DNA of 53,484 nucleotides from Acidobacteriota bacterium (GTDB taxonomy: Bacteria > Pseudomonadota > Alphaproteobacteria > Acetobacterales > Acetobacteraceae): contig CAJCIS010000180.1 in assembly GCA_903970435.1 (NCBI GenBank), positions 1 to 53,484 on the forward strand, written 5' to 3'. The translations under genes were made by a program, and so were the position numbers. Shown in pieces: positions 871 through 52,251 of the stretch. The notes beneath the pieces are model-generated. The model was not told the origin of the DNA. It ran no database searches and saw only the letters and a program-made list of their open reading frames with translations. The first letter of the stretch is position 1; every line of letters starts with the position of its first letter.

Positions 871-2265
871 TCAAGGCGCCGGCGTCGTCCCGTACCACCG
901 GTCGCGCGTGGCATTATAATGCGCTACCGGATCATACAACCGCACATCCAAACCCAGCGCCTGCGCGCTCAGCCGCCCGGTCACTGCCTGCAATTGCAAA
1001 CTCGCAACGTAGCTGTCGCGTTCCGCCGTTATCTGGTTGACGTCCGCGGCCAGTTGCTCCTGTTGCGCGTTCAGAACCTCCAGCAGGGTGCGCGCGCCCA
1101 CCGATTGCTGCCGTGCGACGCCGCGGGCGGCCACGCTGTTGGCGGCCAGCGAGGTGCGATATTCCGCCACGCGGGTGCGCGCCCCATCCAGCGCTGCCCA
1201 CGCCGTCTGTATTTCCGCGCGCGCCTTGCGCAATACCACATCCACTTGCAGCAGGCTGCGCGCCGCCGCTTCCTTCGCCTGCCGGATTTCGGCTGCCTGC
1301 TCGCCACCCTGATACAACGGAACCGTCAACTGCAACGTCGCCTCGACAAGGTCGTCGCGCTGATGCGGAAACTGCACGTCGGTTTCCTTCACGCGGCCGC
1401 CGTGAAATTCCGCCGACAGGCGCGGCTGCAGGCCGGCGCGGGCGATATCGATCCCCTGGCGCGCCGCTTCCTGCGCCGCGCGCGATTGCACGACATCGAA
1501 ATTGGCGGCAACGAATTTCATCGCGGCGTCGAGCCCCGGCGGCACATCGACCGCGCGTGTCGGCAATGGGGCCGCGCCGGCAGGCTGACCTATTTGCTGC
1601 TCGTAGGCCGCCCGGGAGGCGGCGAGCGACGCCACCGCCTGGGCCGTGCGGGCCCGCTGGTCGGCGAGGCGGGCCCTGGCCTGCGCGACATCCGTTTCGG
1701 TGACAGCGCCGGCCGCCAATTCCTGCTCGCTGGCACGCAATGTTCGCTCCAGCACCGTCTCCTGATGATGGTTCAGTTCCACGATGCGCTGGTCGCGCGC
1801 CACGTCGAGATACGCGGTGGCGGCGGCAAGCAGCACCGCGGCCTCGGTCGCCTGCAGGCCGGCCCGTTCGGCCGCTACCAGCGCCTCCGCCTGGCTGACC
1901 TGTGCGTGCACCTTGCCGCCGGTGTATATCGGCTGCGTCACGGACAGCATGGAATCCTGCGGCACGCGGCGTTCGGGCTGATGCGTCGGGTCCATGCTGT
2001 CCCAGAACGCAGAGACGCCAATGCTTCCGTCGATCGTTACACGCGGGCGCCAGCCGGAGAGCGCTTTGGGGACGCCCTCGTCGGCTTCGCGTAATTGCTG
2101 GCGGGCTGCCAGCAATTGCGGGTTGTAGAGATAGGCTTGCGACAGGGCCGTTTCGAAGGCGCTATCTTCTGCGCGCGCAGAAGGCCGGAAAATAAACCAA
2201 AAAAACAAAAGAAGGAAGTAGTTCTTTTTTGAAAAAGAGAACCAAAAAACTTTTGCCTTTTTCAT
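871..2265 (-). CDS. TolC-family outer membrane efflux protein
   Basis: Outer-membrane channel of a tripartite pump; 464 residues, the usual family length. After a signal peptide ending SARA, the mature part begins EDSAFETALSQAYLYNP, the classic OEP start, followed by two alpha-helical OEP repeats rich in Ala, Gln and Arg (for example residues 110-240 and 300-420). The ATG at 2265 overlaps the MFS stop (ATGA), so translation is coupled. Oddly, residues 4-18 of the signal peptide (KAKVFWFSFSKKNYF) are encoded by an ATH half-unit at 2214-2254; no other good start exists before the mature domain. Last gene of a four-gene efflux operon. Confidence 0.93.
   Translation of the reverse strand: MKKAKVFWFSFSKKNYFLLLFFWFIFRPSARAEDSAFETALSQAYLYNPQLLAARQQLREADEGVPKALSGWRPRVTIDGSIGVSAFWDSMDPTHQPERRVPQDSMLSVTQPIYTGGKVHAQVSQAEALVAAERAGLQATEAAVLLAAATAYLDVARDQRIVELNHHQETVLERTLRASEQELAAGAVTETDVAQARARLADQRARTAQAVASLAASRAAYEQQIGQPAGAAPLPTRAVDVPPGLDAAMKFVAANFDVVQSRAAQEAARQGIDIARAGLQPRLSAEFHGGRVKETDVQFPHQRDDLVEATLQLTVPLYQGGEQAAEIRQAKEAAARSLLQVDVVLRKARAEIQTAWAALDGARTRVAEYRTSLAANSVAARGVARQQSVGARTLLEVLNAQQEQLAADVNQITAERDSYVASLQLQAVTGRLSAQALGLDVRLYDPVAHYNATRDRWYGTTPAP
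2214..2254 (+). repeat. ATH half-unit inside the tolC signal-peptide codons
   Basis: Solo copy with a slightly altered stem (GTTCTTTTTTGAAAAAGAGAAC). The CTTTT end lies 7 bases from the MFS stop codon. On the minus strand it is read in frame as KVFWFSFSKKNYFL within the TolC signal peptide. Confidence 0.92.
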
Positions 2266-3800
2266 GGGCGGGGGGCGCGGAAGAGTTTCGTTTCGTTTAG
2301 CGCCAGCACGATCAGCATGGTGCCCAGCATGATGATGCCGATCCAGCCGAAGGCGTCTTCCACCGCCATCGTTGTTGCCTGCCGGCGGACGGCGCCGGTC
2401 AGGGCGGCAGCCGATGGCACATTTCCGGCGACCAGGTGATCCGCGATGGTATTGGAATGCACCCTTTCACGCACGGCCAGAATGCCGCCGATCACGGCGC
2501 CGCCAACGCTGCCGGCGAGCGTTCGCACCACATTGAACAGCGTGGCGCCGGAAAGCGCATCGGTCAGCTGCAAGGTGGAGGTGGATATCACGATCAGCGG
2601 CACCATGATCAGCGGCTGTCCGCAGGCCTGCAGTATGTGCGATGGCAGAATATCCGCCTTGACCCAATCGCTGTCGGCGAACGTGGCCAGCCGCACACCC
2701 AGCGCCACGATGAGGAGGCCGAGCGCAAGCACGATCCTGGCCTCCAGCACGCGCAACAGGAAAGGCGTTGCGGCGCACACGAACAGTTGCGCCAGCGCCG
2801 CCCAGATCAGAATGTTGCCGACCTGCAATTCGCGGAAGCCGCGCACCTGAATGCCATATTGCGGCAGCAGCAGGCTGGTCCCCAGCGTGGACACCGCGAA
2901 GGCGAAGATCGTCGTCAATCCGCCGGTGAAGTTGCGCCGCAGCAACAGGCGCAGATTGATCAGCGGTGTGTCGTGATACAGCTCCACGGTCACAAACCCG
3001 ACCAGCGTCATCGCCGCCGCGACGAACAGCGACACGATGAACGCCGAGGAGAACCAGTCCAGCCGCTGGCCCTCGTCCAGCGCGGCCGTCAGCAGCGATG
3101 CGAACGCCACCATCAGGAACATGCCCCAATAATCGGCATTTCGAAAAACCTCGGGGCGGGCGGGCTCCACAGGTAATCCGAACAGCACAAGGCCCAGCAC
3201 GACCGGGCCGATCACGCCGCCGACATAGAAGATCGCCTGCCAGTGCACGATGTCGGTCAACACGCCGGCCAATGATTCGGAAATCAGCGGCGTGCTCGCC
3301 GTCACCAGGGCATACAGCGTAAAGCCGTAGATGCGCTGGTGCAACGGTGTGTGCCGCAGCAATATGCCTAGCAACAAGGGTATCAGCGCGCCGCCCCCCA
3401 CGCCTTGCAGGAAGCGCATCGCGACCAGCCACACATACCCCTGGTTCGCCGCCCAAGGGCATAATGCGCCGGCCATGGTGAGCAATATCACCGACACCGC
3501 GACCGCGCGGCGCTGCGAAATGATGCTGGCCAGCCAAGGCGTCATCGGCACCACGGCGATTTCGGCGATATTGTAGGCCGACGAGACCCAGGCAGCCTCG
3601 TCCACGCCGTAACCGATGCCGCCACGCAAATCGGCGAGCGAGAAAGTGGTCAATCGTGTGTCCAGGTTGGAAACGAAGCTGCCGAGCACGGCGCCGAACA
3701 GGCCCAGCGCGAGGCGCATTGTGACGGGCGGCGGCCCTTGCACGCGGCCGTCCGGACCGCGCGGCGGATCGAGATGAAGCGGCGCCAGCCAGTTCTTCAC
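2262..3800 (-). CDS. MFS multidrug efflux transporter, DHA2 (EmrB/QacA) family
   Basis: Inner-membrane proton-drug antiporter of 512 residues with about 14 hydrophobic segments, the DHA2 layout. Visible landmarks are the N-terminal TM1 (LGLFGAVLGSFVSNLDTRL), the AAWVSSAYNIAE motif of DHA2 proteins, and the TM4-5 region MRFLQGVGGGALIPL. It is the third gene of an operon with two adaptors upstream and TolC downstream. The start is GTG at 3800, overlapping the previous stop as GTGA, and the stop overlaps the tolC ATG, so all junctions are translationally coupled. The substrate cannot be inferred. Confidence 0.93.
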   Translation of the reverse strand: MKNWLAPLHLDPPRGPDGRVQGPPPVTMRLALGLFGAVLGSFVSNLDTRLTTFSLADLRGGIGYGVDEAAWVSSAYNIAEIAVVPMTPWLASIISQRRAVAVSVILLTMAGALCPWAANQGYVWLVAMRFLQGVGGGALIPLLLGILLRHTPLHQRIYGFTLYALVTASTPLISESLAGVLTDIVHWQAIFYVGGVIGPVVLGLVLFGLPVEPARPEVFRNADYWGMFLMVAFASLLTAALDEGQRLDWFSSAFIVSLFVAAAMTLVGFVTVELYHDTPLINLRLLLRRNFTGGLTTIFAFAVSTLGTSLLLPQYGIQVRGFRELQVGNILIWAALAQLFVCAATPFLLRVLEARIVLALGLLIVALGVRLATFADSDWVKADILPSHILQACGQPLIMVPLIVISTSTLQLTDALSGATLFNVVRTLAGSVGGAVIGGILAVRERVHSNTIADHLVAGNVPSAAALTGAVRRQATTMAVEDAFGWIGIIMLGTMLIVLALNETKLFRAPRP

Positions 3801-4834
3801 GGAGTCCCCGCGGTGTCTATTTCCACCTCGGCGGAAAGACCCGGCAGCAGGCGCGCGTCGAACGCCGGCCGCGCATCGAGCACGACCTTCACCGGTACGC
3901 GCTGCTCGATTTTGGTGAAACTGCCGGTGGCGCGGTCCGGCGGCAGCAGCGATCCCTCCGCCTGGGTGTCGGGTTCGAGACTGTCCACATGGCCGCTGAA
4001 TACCACGCCTGGAATGGCGTCCACGAACACGCGGGCCGGCTGGCCGGGCCGCATGCGCGTGACCTGCACTTCGCGGTAATTCGCCACCGCCCAGGCGCCC
4101 CGCAAGGGCACCAGACTGATCAGCGCCGTGCCCGGCGCCACATAATCGCCGCGCCGCTCCTGCCGCGCTGTGGTCATGCCGTCGAACGGCGCCACGATGC
4201 GCGTGTATCCCAAATCCACCTCCGCGCGCGCCAGCGCGGCCCGCGCGCCCTCCAGCGACGCGCGCTGCCCGGCCAACTCGGCCTGCAATTCGCCGATGCG
4301 CGCCTGCTCGGCGGCCAACGCGCGGCGCGCGCCGGCCGCGGCAGCCTGACGCTGGCCGTTGGCCGCCACGGCATTCTGCCAGTCGCGCGCAAGAAACGAT
4401 TCCGTGTGCAGCAGAGCAGCCTGGCGCGTGCGTTCCAGGCCGGCCCGCTCGCTTTCCGCATCTGCGGCGGCGACGTTGGCCTGCGCCACGCCGATCTGTG
4501 CCGTCTGCTGCGCAAGTTCGGCTTCCGCCACGGCAACCATGGCCTCGCCTTGCGCGACTTCGGCGCGCGCGCGGCCGACCCGGGCGCGGTAATCACGGTC
4601 GTCGATGGCGTAGAGCAGCGTGCCGCGCCGAACCGCCTGGAAGTCCCGCACCGGCACGTTCACGAGATAGCCGGCCACCCGCGCCTTGAGTTGCGTCGGA
4701 TCGCCATCGAGGGCCGCATCGTTGGTCTGCCGCACGCTGCCGAAGGCGACCAGGGCGTTCCAGTCCACCACGAAGGCGACCGCGCCGAGCAGCAGCAAAG
4801 CGGAAACCACCGCGCGGATGATCGCATTGCGCAT
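3797..4834 (-). CDS. HlyD/EmrA-type membrane fusion protein (second adaptor)
   Basis: Periplasmic adaptor linking the MFS pump to TolC, 345 residues. One N-terminal membrane anchor (IIRAVVSALLLLGAVAFVVD), then a biotinyl-lipoyl-like segment (LKARVAGYLVNVPVRDFQAV), a long Ala/Gln/Arg-rich coiled-coil hairpin (about residues 85-195), the second lipoyl half (YTRIVAPFDGMTTAR) and a beta-barrel domain (AWAVANYREVQVTRMRPGQ). ATG at 4834 forms TGATG with the stop of the first adaptor; a TTG one codon upstream is an alternative. It is a diverged paralogue of the gene before it. One pump with two different adaptors is uncommon. Confidence 0.92.
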   Translation of the reverse strand: MRNAIIRAVVSALLLLGAVAFVVDWNALVAFGSVRQTNDAALDGDPTQLKARVAGYLVNVPVRDFQAVRRGTLLYAIDDRDYRARVGRARAEVAQGEAMVAVAEAELAQQTAQIGVAQANVAAADAESERAGLERTRQAALLHTESFLARDWQNAVAANGQRQAAAAGARRALAAEQARIGELQAELAGQRASLEGARAALARAEVDLGYTRIVAPFDGMTTARQERRGDYVAPGTALISLVPLRGAWAVANYREVQVTRMRPGQPARVFVDAIPGVVFSGHVDSLEPDTQAEGSLLPPDRATGSFTKIEQRVPVKVVLDARPAFDARLLPGLSAEVEIDTAGTP

Positions 4835-5952
4835 CAATGTGCGACGCCGGCGGCTGCGTCGCGGGTCAGCACGGTTGCCACCGCCGACATGCCAGGCCGC
4901 ACCAGGCCGCGCAGCCGGCCGGCGTTGCCGCTATCGTTCCACAAAATCGCAATCCGCACCGTCACGCGGGCGGGCACCTTGGTGAAGTTTCCCGTCGTGT
5001 TGTCGGGCACGATTGCGCTCAGGCGGCCGCCGGTGACCGGCGACATGCCAATCACGCGCCCCGCCAGCACATCGCCGGGAAACGTATCGAGGCGCAGGCG
5101 GGCGGGTTGCCCGATGCGGATATTGGGTATCTGGCGTTCGGTGAAGTTGGCATCCACCCACACCGTATCGAGCGGCGTGACGCCGACCACCCGCGTTCCC
5201 GCCGCCAGCAGGTCGCCGACGCGCACCCGGCGTGCGCCGAGCGTGCCGTCCACCGGCGACACGATCCGGGTCCATCCCAGGTTCAGTTGCGCGAGGTCCA
5301 GGTCGGCCTGGCGGGCCACCACCGCGGCTTGCGCGCCGCGCCGTTGCGCGTCCAGGGTTGCCGCCTGCCGCTCGCGCACCAGGCGTTGCGCGTGCGCCGC
5401 TTGCACGCCGGCGAGGTCGCGTTTCTGGTCGGCGATGGCGGTATCGAGCGCGCGGCGCACGCCGGCATCGGTGTGGATCAGAACTTGCTGGCGCGCGAGT
5501 TCCGGTTGCGTGCTGGAAATCGCGGCGATCGAGCCTTCCTCGCTGCTGCGGGTCTGCGCGATCTGCGCCAGCAACACCGCTTGTTGCGCATCGATGGCGT
5601 CCAGCCGCGCGCGCGCGGCCAGCAAGGCCGCCTGCGCCTGATCGCGTTCGGCGCGATAATCGTCATCCTCGATCGTGGCGATCAGATCGCCGGCATGCAC
5701 AGGCTGATTATCGGCGATCGGCAGGCTCGTCAGATAGCCGGTCACCCGCGCGGCCACGTGGGTGACATCGCCGCCGACATAGGCGTTGTCGGTTTGTGGA
5801 TTTTCCCGGTAGGTAAACCCCTTGTCCAGCGACAGCACGAACACCGCGGCGGCAATGATCACGCCCACGGCGGCGAAGAAAACCAGCATGGGCCGCCAGC
5901 GCCGCGCCGGGGGCGCGGCCGGCGCGGCAGCGAGGGGCGGCGCGTCAGACAC
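4834..5952 (-). CDS. HlyD/EmrA-type membrane fusion protein (first adaptor)
   Basis: Adaptor subunit, 372 residues from the GTG at 5952 (AGGA about nine bases upstream); a TTG at 6009 would add 19 residues. Pro/Ala-rich cytoplasmic N-terminus, one transmembrane anchor (MLVFFAAVGVIIAAAVFVL), the EmrA-like QTDNAYVGGDVTHVAARVTGY segment shortened here to TDNAYVGG, a coiled-coil hairpin, then LGWTRIVSPVDGTLGARRV and WVDANFTERQIPNIRIGQPA, typical of EmrA/HlyD adaptors. First gene of the efflux operon; its stop overlaps the next start. No dedicated regulator is visible beside it. Confidence 0.92.
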   Translation of the reverse strand: MSDAPPLAAAPAAPPARRWRPMLVFFAAVGVIIAAAVFVLSLDKGFTYRENPQTDNAYVGGDVTHVAARVTGYLTSLPIADNQPVHAGDLIATIEDDDYRAERDQAQAALLAARARLDAIDAQQAVLLAQIAQTRSSEEGSIAAISSTQPELARQQVLIHTDAGVRRALDTAIADQKRDLAGVQAAHAQRLVRERQAATLDAQRRGAQAAVVARQADLDLAQLNLGWTRIVSPVDGTLGARRVRVGDLLAAGTRVVGVTPLDTVWVDANFTERQIPNIRIGQPARLRLDTFPGDVLAGRVIGMSPVTGGRLSAIVPDNTTGNFTKVPARVTVRIAILWNDSGNAGRLRGLVRPGMSAVATVLTRDAAAGVAH

Positions 5953-6061
5953 CAAATCCGGTCCTGCGTGAGACGCACATATCAACCGTACGATCTCAAG
6001 GGCGGTCAAGGAGGCGGGCGAGCGTTGTTACGCGTAATGCCGATCGTCCACGTCAACAGAT

Positions 6062-7780: not shown

Positions 7781-8977
7781 ATGGGCCACCTCAATGATAT
7801 CGGCAACGCCATTCTCGATGTGGTGCGCGCCGAGGAAGCCGGCCTGATCGCGGTGCGGCGGGACCTGCATGCCCACCCGGAATTATCGTTCCAGGAGGTG
7901 CGCACGGCCGGCGTGGTCGCCGCCGAACTGGCCCGCCTGGGTATTGCCTGCCGCACCGGGGTGGGTGGCACCGGCGTGATCGCGGACATCCAGGGCGGCC
8001 GCCCTGGCATCACCCTGGCCATCCGCGGCGACATGGACGCCCTGCCGATCGAGGAGCGCACCGGCCTGCCGTTCGCCAGCCAGAACAACGGCGTCATGCA
8101 TGCCTGCGGCCATGATGTGCACACCAGCACGCTGCTCGGCGTGGCCGCCATCCTCAAGCGCCTGGCACCGGAAATGTCGGGCACCGTGCGCCTGCTGTTC
8201 CAGCCGGCCGAGGAGGTACTGGGCGGCGCCCGCGCCATGATCGCCGAGGGGGCGCTGGACGGCGTGGACATGGCGCTGGGGTATCACAACCATCCGGACA
8301 TTCCGGTCGGAAGCTTCGGCGCCGTGCAGGGCGCGACCTACGCCGCGTGCGACCGGTTCCGCCTGGTCGTGCGCGGCGTCTCGGGCCACGCCGCCTACCC
8401 GCAGACGACGGTGGACCCGATCGTGGCAGCCGCGCATCTGATCACCGGGTTGCAAACCATCGTGTCGCGCGAAGTGGGCGCGATCGACAGTTGCGTGGTG
8501 ACGATCGGCGCCATCCATGCCGGGACGGTGCACAACATCATTCCCGACAGCTGCGAGCTGCTCGGCACCGTGCGGACCCTCACCGACAGCATCCGCGAGC
8601 GGGCGGAGCAGGCGGTATTTCGCTTCTGCGCCGGGTTGGAGACCAGCTTCCGCACGCCCTGCGACCTCGACTGGAACCCGGGCGTGCCGCCGACGCTGAA
8701 CGCGCCGCATGTGCTGGAAACAAGCGTGGCCGCCATCCGGCGGCAGCTCGGCGATGTGTTCGTGGCCGGCGAGCCCTCGATGGGCGCCGAGGATTTCTCG
8801 CTCATCGCCAGCGCGGTGCCGAGCTTCGTGCTGCGCATCGGCTCCGGGACACCGGGGCGCAGCGATCAACTGCATAATTCGGGGTACCAGCCGGACGAGG
8901 CGTGCATCGCGCTGGGCGCGACAGCCCTGGCGCGGGCGGCGTTGGAATTGATGGCGCGTTATAGCAATCCGCGTTGA
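7781..8977 (+). CDS. M20-family amidohydrolase (HipO/IlvA-amidase type peptidase M20D)
   Basis: Zinc-dependent hydrolase that cleaves amide bonds of N-acyl amino acids (hippurate or IAA-amino-acid hydrolase group). 398 residues from ATG 7781 with GAAAGAA in front; a TTG at 7766 is less likely. Motifs in order: RRDLHAHPELSFQE, RGDMDALPI, the metal site MHACGHDVHTS, QPAEEVLGGA with the catalytic Glu pair, the dimerization-domain RGVSGHAAYP, and late GAEDFS. Transcribed divergently from manC with about 210 bases between starts. Precise substrate unknown. Confidence 0.92.
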   Translation: MGHLNDIGNAILDVVRAEEAGLIAVRRDLHAHPELSFQEVRTAGVVAAELARLGIACRTGVGGTGVIADIQGGRPGITLAIRGDMDALPIEERTGLPFASQNNGVMHACGHDVHTSTLLGVAAILKRLAPEMSGTVRLLFQPAEEVLGGARAMIAEGALDGVDMALGYHNHPDIPVGSFGAVQGATYAACDRFRLVVRGVSGHAAYPQTTVDPIVAAAHLITGLQTIVSREVGAIDSCVVTIGAIHAGTVHNIIPDSCELLGTVRTLTDSIRERAEQAVFRFCAGLETSFRTPCDLDWNPGVPPTLNAPHVLETSVAAIRRQLGDVFVAGEPSMGAEDFSLIASAVPSFVLRIGSGTPGRSDQLHNSGYQPDEACIALGATALARAALELMARYSNPR

Positions 8978-9024
8978 GTTTGACACATCGCAGCACGCAT
9001 TCGCGTGACGGCGTGCCGCCGGCG

Positions 9025-9059
9025 GGGGTCCAGGGGGTGAAACCCCCTGGCCTTCTTCG
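9025..9059 (+). repeat. GCH repeat, partial (single hairpin)
   Basis: Contains the hairpin CCAGGGGGT...ACCCCCTGG (9030-9050) followed by CCTTCTTC, the right end of the GCH family. It lies between the convergent M20 hydrolase and GNAT genes and could act as a bidirectional terminator. Confidence 0.7.
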
Positions 9060-9070
9060 AAGAGTCAGTC

Positions 9071-9523
9071 TCAAATCGCCTTCGACAGCTCCGCCATCTG
9101 GTGCTCGGCGACCAGCGGGTGCGGGCGGTGCTCCCGCACCTGGTAGCCACAATGCTGATAGATCGAAATGGTCTGCTGCAGCAGCACGTTCGCGGCGACG
9201 CGCACTTCGTGCAGGCCGTTGTCGGTCGCGAGCTCCTCGGCATGTTCCAGCAGCTCGCGGCCGTGGCCACGGCCTTGCCAGGCGGGATCGACGGCGGCCA
9301 TCCGCACCGCGAGGTGCCCGTCCGCGGGTTCGGCGAGAAGCACCGCCACCACAGCGCTGGCGTGTTCGCCAACCCAGGCGGCGCCGCGCTGCACCCACTC
9401 GGCTGCGTTCAATGCCACGGCCGGCGGCTGATAGCCGAGGCGCACCTGATCGGGATTGTAGGCTCTTGTGATCACATCTCGGATCGCCGGCAGGTCCCCG
9501 ATCGTCGCTCGCCGAATACGCAT
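9071..9523 (-). CDS. GNAT-family N-acetyltransferase
   Basis: Acetyl-CoA-dependent acetyltransferase of 150 residues. It opens with the usual MRIRRATIGDLPAI, has the acetyl-CoA pyrophosphate-binding motif A (AAVDPAWQGRGHGRELL, the Q/RxxGxG/A core) and a C-terminal ISIYQHCGYQV that forms the last strand-helix pair. No acceptor can be inferred. It is convergent with the M20 hydrolase and divergent from htrA. Confidence 0.88.
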   Translation of the reverse strand: MRIRRATIGDLPAIRDVITRAYNPDQVRLGYQPPAVALNAAEWVQRGAAWVGEHASAVVAVLLAEPADGHLAVRMAAVDPAWQGRGHGRELLEHAEELATDNGLHEVRVAANVLLQQTISIYQHCGYQVREHRPHPLVAEHQMAELSKAI

Positions 9524-35454: not shown

Positions 35455-35595
35455 GAAGAAGGCCAGGGGCTCTGCCCCTGGACCAAGCTGGGGACCAGTC
35501 CCCAGGCCCCATGACTTAGTAAGGGAACACACAAAGGGGGTCTGGGGATTTGTCCCCGGCTTGGGTCCAAGGGGCAGAGCCCCCTGGCCTTTTTC
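35455..35595. repeat. GCH full element
   Basis: Nested inverted repeat: left arm 35455-35510, right arm 35540-35595, about 85% complementary, around a 25-30 base AT-richer centre. Each arm holds two hairpins, CCAGGGGC...GCCCCTGG and TGGGGAC...GTCCCCA. Located inside the polysaccharide operon, between the Wzz gene and the kinase. Confidence 0.85.
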
Positions 35596-43460: not shown

Positions 43461-43561
43461 CGCGATGTGGGCAGGGCCCTGACGGCACCCTGTGTGCTGC
43501 ACGATTTCGGCATGTCGGGGGGCGATTGCAAGTAGAATCGCCTGCGCGATACCGCGTAAGC

Positions 43562-43673
43562 ACGTACGTTCAAGCCGGCGCCGGCCCTCACCCCCGCCCG
43601 GCCACCCACTGAAAGTATACTATCGTTGGGTGGCCGGGCGGGGGTGAGGGCCGGCGCCCCCTTGAACGTACGT
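43562..43673. repeat. Large palindrome, 47-bp arms, 18-base loop
   Basis: Arms 43562-43608 and 43627-43673 pair at 45 of 47 positions (mismatches only at 43575-43576 against 43659-43660). The loop contains GTATAC. Ends read ACGTACGTTCAAG; the inner arm is very GC-rich (CCGCCCGGCCACCCA). Lies between the divergent hsp20 and def genes, so it is not a convergent terminator. Nature unknown. Confidence 0.9.
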
Positions 43674-43714
43674 CTTCACGACTACCCTGGCATTTGGCAT
43701 TTCGCTTGGGGTAG

Positions 43715-51030: not shown

Positions 51031-51994
51031 AAGCGGTGGCAACTTGAACTTGCCACCCGACCGTCACATCGAGGCGTTTTGCGAAATGCTGGCGGCCGAA
51101 CGCGGCGCCGCGCGTAACACGCTTTTGGCGTACAGCCGCGATCTCGCTGATTTCTCCGGGTTTGCCTTGGCAAGAGGCGAGCGGTCCGCCGCCGCCAGTG
51201 CAGCCACGGTGCAAGCCTACATGGCGAGCCTGGGGGCGGCCGGCCTCGGTGCCTGTAGCGCCGCCCGCCGGCTGAGCTGCCTGCGCCAGTTCTTCCGCTT
51301 CCTGCTGCGTGACGGCGCGCGCGCCGACGATCCCACCGCCCTGCTGGAAACACCCAAACAGCCGCTGCGTCTGCCCAAATTCCTCAACGAGGCGGAGGTC
51401 GAATCGCTGCTGGCCGCCGCGCCAACGCTGCCGGATCGGCACGGCCTTATCGCCGATGCGGGCTTCTCGCTGCTGTATGTAACCGGGCTGCGCGTGTCGG
51501 AACTGCTGAACCTGCCGCGCAGCGCCATGGCCTCACGCGCCGAGCTGCTGAGCATACGCGGCAAAGGCGGCCGCGAGCGGCTGGTGCCGGTGTCCGACCA
51601 GGCGCGCGCCGCCGCGCAGGCGCTGATCGCCGCGAGCCCGGCCAGCAAATACATATTTCCCGGCCGCAATCCGGCGCGCCCGTTGACCCGGCAAGGCTTC
51701 GACAAAATCGTCCGCGATACCGCCATCGCCGCCGGCCTGGACCCGGCGCGCCTGTCGCCCCACGTGCTGCGCCATGCCTTCGCGAGCCACATGCTGGCGC
51801 GCGGCGCGGATCTGCGCAGCCTGCAATTGCTGCTGGGCCATGCCGATATCGCCACCACACAAATATATACGCACGTGCTGCACGAACGCCTGCACGCGCT
51901 GGTGACGGCGCATCATCCGCTGGCAAGAAGAAGGCCAGGGGGCTCTGCCCCCTGGACCCCCGCTAAGGACAAGTCCTTAGAACCTGTTACTTAA
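50996..51994 (+). CDS. xerD: Tyrosine recombinase XerD
   Basis: Chromosome dimer resolution at dif with XerC. 332 residues from the ATG at 50996; TTG codons at 51044/51050 are alternatives starting just after the 47-aa gene. N-terminal SAM-like domain ([23 protein letters not shown]), then catalytic Arg in [10 protein letters not shown], Lys in [39 protein letters not shown] with His and Tyr nucleophile. The true protein probably ended near [12 protein letters not shown]; the last 22 residues (from [10 protein letters not shown]) are read from a GCH repeat. Confidence 0.93.
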
Positions 51995-52137
51995 GGGGAG
52001 TCAGGGTATCTGGAGGGGGCACACGAGCTTTGCGTACGGCACGCGTGCCCCCTCCAGATACCCTGACTTTTCTTAAACAAATGGGGTCTGGGGACTTGTC
52101 CCCAGCGGGGTCCAAGGGCAGAGCCCCTGGCCTTCTT
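51926..52137. repeat. GCH full element with a nested perfect hairpin
   Basis: Outer arms 51926-51980 and about 52083-52137 are inverted copies of the GCH unit (CCAGGGGGC...GCCCCCTGG, then GGAC...GTCC). The centre holds a second palindrome: 24 perfectly paired bases (51999-52022 with 52045-52068), extending to 32 pairs in RNA if three G-U pairs are allowed. The left arm overlaps the 3' end of xerD. Confidence 0.85.
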
Positions 52138-52251
52138 CTTGCCACCCGATGGTGCGCTGCACCTTGATAAGCAGCGATGGCTCCGATATCCGAAGCGGGA
52201 TGTTGGCGGCCTGCGTATCGCGGCGGCCCTGGACCGGGACGTGATCCGAAG

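Follow-up and report, generated by a model that had tools for sequence, protein, structure and literature searches.

A dispersed palindromic repeat as a probable source of part of the predicted signal peptide of a TolC-family protein

At the start of a TolC-family gene in the window, the 53,484 nt stretch of DNA analysed here, a short palindromic repeat found throughout the host genome is read in frame and encodes about half of the predicted signal peptide. The best explanation, to which we assign a probability of around 80%, is that the unit inserted after the stop codon of the upstream MFS permease gene and was captured as part of the TolC signal peptide. From the sequences we infer that a REP/MITE-like dispersed palindromic unit would have inserted into the operon immediately behind the MFS stop codon and, the TolC start overlapping that stop, would have come to lie after codon 2 of tolC. 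Its reading frame would have been joined to an inherited ARA cleavage region, generating a longer Sec signal peptide, cleaved after Ala32, that may have been retained since signal peptides tolerate sequence change.

The TolC gene (871..2265, minus strand) encodes a 464 aa precursor matching Pfam OEP (174.5 bits) and TIGR01844 (253.6 bits, above the curated cut-off of 225.15). It follows, on the same strand, genes for a DHA2/EmrB-like MFS permease (2262..3800) and two EmrA/HlyD-like adaptors (3797..4837 and 4834..6009, both identified through Pfam and TIGR family matches), and by virtue of this composition the operon looks like one specifying a tripartite efflux pump. The permease matches Pfam MFS_1 but, at 226.3 bits, narrowly misses the TIGR00711 cut-off of 230.2, and is thus termed only 'EmrB-like'. 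The TolC ATG (2265-2263) and the MFS TGA (2264-2262) share a 4 nt ATGA (2262..2265, minus strand), an overlap that the first-pass annotation had identified correctly. Immediately downstream is the repeat unit, AAGGAAG.AGTTCTTTTTTGAAAAAGAGAACCAAAAAACTTTTG (2213..2260, plus strand; nhmmer 56.3 bits, E 2e-15; family D1 in a repeat search), the minus strand of which forms TolC codons 3-18, rather than the codons 4-18 originally proposed for this in-frame 'ATH' unit.

Translated in the tolC frame, the unit gives KVFWFSFSKKNYFL, comprising basic and hydrophobic residues, within a predicted Sec signal peptide of 32 residues (2170..2265, minus strand), MKKAKVFWFSFSKKNYFLLLFFWFIFRPSARA, which precedes a mature sequence beginning EDSAF. 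This prediction is based on the sequence itself, the charge of the n-region, the hydropathy of the h-region and the signal peptides of orthologues; throughout, signal peptides were judged by hydropathy, charge and the AXA motif only. A net charge of +5 ahead of the h-region constitutes the basic n-region of a type I Sec signal. The h-region, YFLLLFFWFIF (2188..2220, minus strand; delimited by sequence, nhmmer and hydropathy), is uncharged and hydrophobic, as in type I Sec signals, its best nine-residue window having a mean KD of 2.91 relative to 1.74-3.23 in homologues. It is succeeded by the c-region RPSARA (2170..2187, minus strand), in which the A-X-A type motif ARA predicts cleavage before E33; the ARA is common to a unit-free orthologue, in which it forms part of VARA. 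The LLLFFWFIF stretch and the SARA cleavage site reported at first pass are therefore present as described, but the hydrophobic core and cleavage region lie mostly outside the repeat: the unit supplies the n-region and, through YFL alone, the first residues of the h-region, while the flank encodes the core LLFFWFIF and RPSARA. Hence the suggestion that the repeat had itself become the signal peptide needs qualifying, as the in-frame unit is required for the charged n-region and yet makes up only about half of the whole. When the T-rich flank was tested as a second, truncated unit, shuffling gave p = 0.0085 over 52 nt and p = 0.10 over the T-rich 30 nt.

The capture depends on translation beginning at the ATG at 2265. 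No in-frame start was found upstream of it in an ORF listing that takes the first ATG, GTG or TTG after a stop, and the sole other start codon within the signal peptide is a TTG at codon 20, from which the product would open with MFFWFIFRPSARA, 13 residues without an n-region; this upholds the initial claim that no alternative start leaves a signal peptide. Deleting the 48 nt unit similarly leaves MNLLFFWFIFRPSARA, 16 residues from which, on assessment of charge and hydropathy, the charged n-region has been lost. It might be argued that the true start is elsewhere, or that a base is missing from a homopolymer, as the assembly is a draft of 293 contigs, the MFS/tolC junction contains T7, T6 and A6 runs, and a Shine-Dalgarno sequence before the ATG is not obvious. 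This is highly improbable: the position of the start is conserved with the orthologue, the frame is unbroken from the ATG via the unit to ARA and the mature protein, stop/start overlaps of this kind fit translational coupling, and the same architecture recurs in independent genes.

A search of 397 genomes of the bacterial family with the MFS protein identified one close operon, in a different genus (genome G066, locus L040; MFS 63% identical). This provides the comparison with an orthologue lacking the repeat that was proposed at the outset: the unit is absent, a GTGA at the corresponding position is shared by the MFS stop and the TolC start, and the TolC begins with a short, ordinary signal peptide of 20 residues, MSRLALSLLIWTCGATVARA, leading into QIEPALDDALSQAYLYNPQ, where the 32 residue window peptide ends RPSARA and leads into EDSAFETALSQAYLYNPQ. 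No unit was present in the signal peptides of about 30 more distant TolC homologues; no close TolC operon was detected in the same genus, or in the other G066-genus species, at the E limits used, and a contig scan for close TolC relatives returned only 28-37% homologues. The combination in L040 of a unit-free junction, the same stop/start overlap and an ordinary signal peptide suggests that the unit replaced or expanded an ancestral signal peptide, the simplest reading being insertion after the start codon of a short ancestral form with its cleavage region kept. The first-pass idea of a repeat inserted at the junction and now coding is supported by this orthologue, although not as a single event, as such captures recur across the genome. 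An alternative outcome is that the insertion damaged tolC, leaving a precursor that fails to be exported and a gene that is in the process of being lost. The signal peptide is indeed unusual, being rich in aromatic residues with two basic clusters, and the presence of other TolC-like genes elsewhere in the genome makes redundancy possible. Nevertheless, such decay appears quite unlikely, as the ORF is uninterrupted and matches TIGR01844 in full, its n-, h- and c-region features are as strong as those of homologues, and several other unit-bearing exported genes are likewise intact.

An nhmmer model built from 16 window copies of the unit matched 28 sites in the window and none in 20 shuffled windows. 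It matched 815 sites in 1.815 Mb of the genome (0.45 per kb), although this sample, 42% of the total, was partly chosen by unit matches; the density was 0.39 per kb in contigs fetched largely regardless of matches. By proportion, the whole 4.29-Mb genome should contain roughly 1,700-1,900 units. The family is also present in 125 of the 397 genomes and 38 of the 102 genera of the bacterial family, which is probably the Acetobacteraceae, given that among named plasmid records the best unit matches are in Pseudoroseomonas. Relative to genes predicted with a home-made caller based on codon usage, 358 of the 450 units in the first 1 Mb are wholly intergenic and 66 touch a gene 3' end, where units probably supply stop codons or C-terminal tails. 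Read by eye, five of the six frames of the unit consensus are open, and two carry an in-frame TTG. The window has other notable repeats: a second dispersed, G+C-rich family (GAAGAAGGCCAGGGGCTCTGCCCCTGG...) with direct and inverted copies at 35455-35595, 51927-52138 and 9014-9058, and, at 43555-43680, a near-perfect long palindrome of two 63 nt arms, 87% complementary, with no spacer. An Rfam scan of the window gave a single match, to a tRNA.

The distribution of units is also what would be expected if the unit acted on transcription or on the mRNA at the 3' end of the MFS gene, for example as a terminator or a processing or stability hairpin, its coding in tolC being tolerated rather than used. 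Units are found in 164 of 228 convergent gaps, 309 of 784 tandem gaps and only 60 of 241 divergent ones, at a median distance of 12 nt from the nearest gene 3' end (64% being within 60 nt), and 112 of 123 close pairs are inverted. However, a terminator search over 700-2500 scored no terminator-like site, and the fold of the tolC start region is weak (z of only -0.8 to -1.7). Moreover, as no plausible signal peptide exists without the unit's residues, their coding use would be needed for export whatever other role the unit may have. A purely regulatory explanation is thus unlikely, and capture as coding sequence is preferred.

Further captures were sought in the same genome by scanning for in-frame units that have a hydrophobic stretch and an AXA motif behind them and no usable later start; the many candidates obtained were then read one by one and annotated. 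In the 1.8 Mb sample, one or two units were found within the predicted signal peptides of about a dozen other exported proteins, HpnM, cytochromes c and a PpiC-type protein among them, and five of these cases have support from orthologues. The HpnM gene (L056), between dxs and hpnI, starts at a -4 overlap with dxs and encodes a predicted signal peptide with two units in frame, ending ...SKTKVFCFFFSKKKYFLPSLILAPTIALA before QSAP; 13 orthologues have no unit in this region, including one of the same genus (L113, 72%). Similarly, a cytochrome c at a -4 overlap (L216) has the unit-bearing signal peptide MKKKQFFFDRKNPKTF...ETKVFCFFFSKKKYVLPLLLLSSSLAYA before ADNGEY, while its same-genus orthologue (L227, 68%) has the unit-free MKITFVAAALVLATPALA before ADSGEY. 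An exported protein of unassigned family (L089) begins MVLFFKKELLLFVCLASPAYA from a TTG inside the unit, and its same-genus orthologue (L157, 78%) has the unit-free MKRWAALAVLLLPLPCLA. In-frame insertion into a conserved gene relative to unit-free orthologues was accordingly found for TolC, HpnM, cytochrome c and L089. The other two cases are a second cytochrome c at a -1 overlap (L191), the orthologue of which (L236) is unit-free with its own signal peptide, and the PpiC-type protein (L205, 9656-9700), which would be translated from a TTG within the unit. In the same-genus orthologue of the latter (L234, 1417-1485; 59%), units are situated just upstream of the ATG opening a normal signal peptide, an arrangement that looks like a stage before capture.

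Weaker candidates, based on family and sequence features only, are L204 (unassigned family, two units, -1 overlap), L196 (glycosidase-like), L223 (FlgA), L062 (outer-membrane efflux lipoprotein), L203 (pectin acetylesterase), L081 (SBP family 5), L191:12083 (RidA-like) and the membrane protein L176; L081, L203, L062 and L191:12083 are ambiguous, requiring TTG or far-upstream starts. As a counter-example, L206 (around 8900-9200, minus strand) has paired units in frame in the N-terminal part of a protein that starts at a GTG (MKRALIDALMGDPGAAVALLDRD...) and does not appear to be exported; these may represent an internal insertion. Several loci were rejected: L177 belongs to the cytosolic BKACE family and has a later Met start, L075, L105, L078, L055 and L079 have usable starts after the unit, L095 has a plausible TTG start after it, and L201 resembles GshB by eye. 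Elsewhere, similar unit-bearing N-termini occur at 2 of 30 loci from other genomes, one being L134, and the same capture can be sought in other species of the bacterial family (genomes G193, G144, G312 and G050), which have hundreds of candidate units.

Stop/start overlaps of -4 or -1 are found at TolC, HpnM, both cytochromes c and L204. Since units tend to lie immediately behind stop codons, one inserting where the next start overlaps the stop will lie inside the next gene. Under a crude criterion, 40 of the 168 genes (24%) downstream of overlapping junctions appear to be exported, whereas all four firm captures with an ATG start and no preferred later start (TolC, HpnM, L216 and L204) do so (0.24^4 ~ 0.003); this bias is suggestive but does not amount to proof, since these captures were found in part through the signal-peptide scan itself. 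All that a signal peptide requires is a succession of basic, hydrophobic and small residues, and so signal peptides may be among the few N-termini able to tolerate such an insert, and the frames of the unit appear to encode suitable peptides by chance. Overall, it seems reasonably probable that this repeat gives rise to captured signal peptides systematically, as a by-product, with units arriving after stops, falling inside the next gene at overlaps and being retained chiefly in exported or membrane proteins, as the frames of the units encode basic-plus-hydrophobic peptides and two of these frames contain a TTG. This would entail a dozen or more signal peptides in one genome that are homologous yet were captured independently, with similar two-unit forms of about 60 residues in HpnM, cytochrome c and L204.

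Repeat-derived signal peptides have been proposed before. In Yersinia, the YPAL/RU-2 element, approximately 168 bp long and not A+T-rich, has been described as contributing to the predicted signal peptide of YPO1552, a single small protein that is putatively exported and was put forward as new (Delihas 2007, PMC2759123; reviewed in PMC2229807). By contrast, the unit described here is about 48 bp and A+T-rich; what is new, as judged from sequence comparison, is its apparent capture by conserved proteins with unit-free orthologues, in recurrent events within one genome. The 105-146 bp Rickettsia palindromic elements (RPE; Ogata 2000) are described as in-frame insertions in conserved protein genes (PMC2229807, PMC10969869); these too are palindromic repeats open in frame, but the descriptions in those two articles do not present them as signal peptides, whereas here it is exported or membrane proteins that carry captured units, at their N-termini. 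REP elements of the GTAG/CGTC super-families are short dispersed palindromes that usually lie 3' of genes and are sometimes found in ORFs (PMC3733652). The unit resembles them in being dispersed, extragenic and 3' of genes, in its preference for convergent and tandem gaps, in its inverted pairs and in sometimes overlapping ORF ends. However, it is A+T-rich and has no fixed terminal GTAG/CGTC tag (window copies having GTAG, GCAG, GCCG or GTCG), and so is not assigned to these super-families.

These observations have a practical consequence for annotation, in that start codons beside such repeats are easily misplaced. They also suggest a reason for the tolerance of insertions at those stop/start overlaps that precede exported genes in operons. 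Signal peptides are degenerate sequences, and new ones can seldom be traced to an origin; here a dispersed repeat has left a readable mark in several that are predicted in a single genome, and orthologues lacking the unit are available for comparison, such that it becomes possible to test directly whether export signals form de novo from non-coding repeats.
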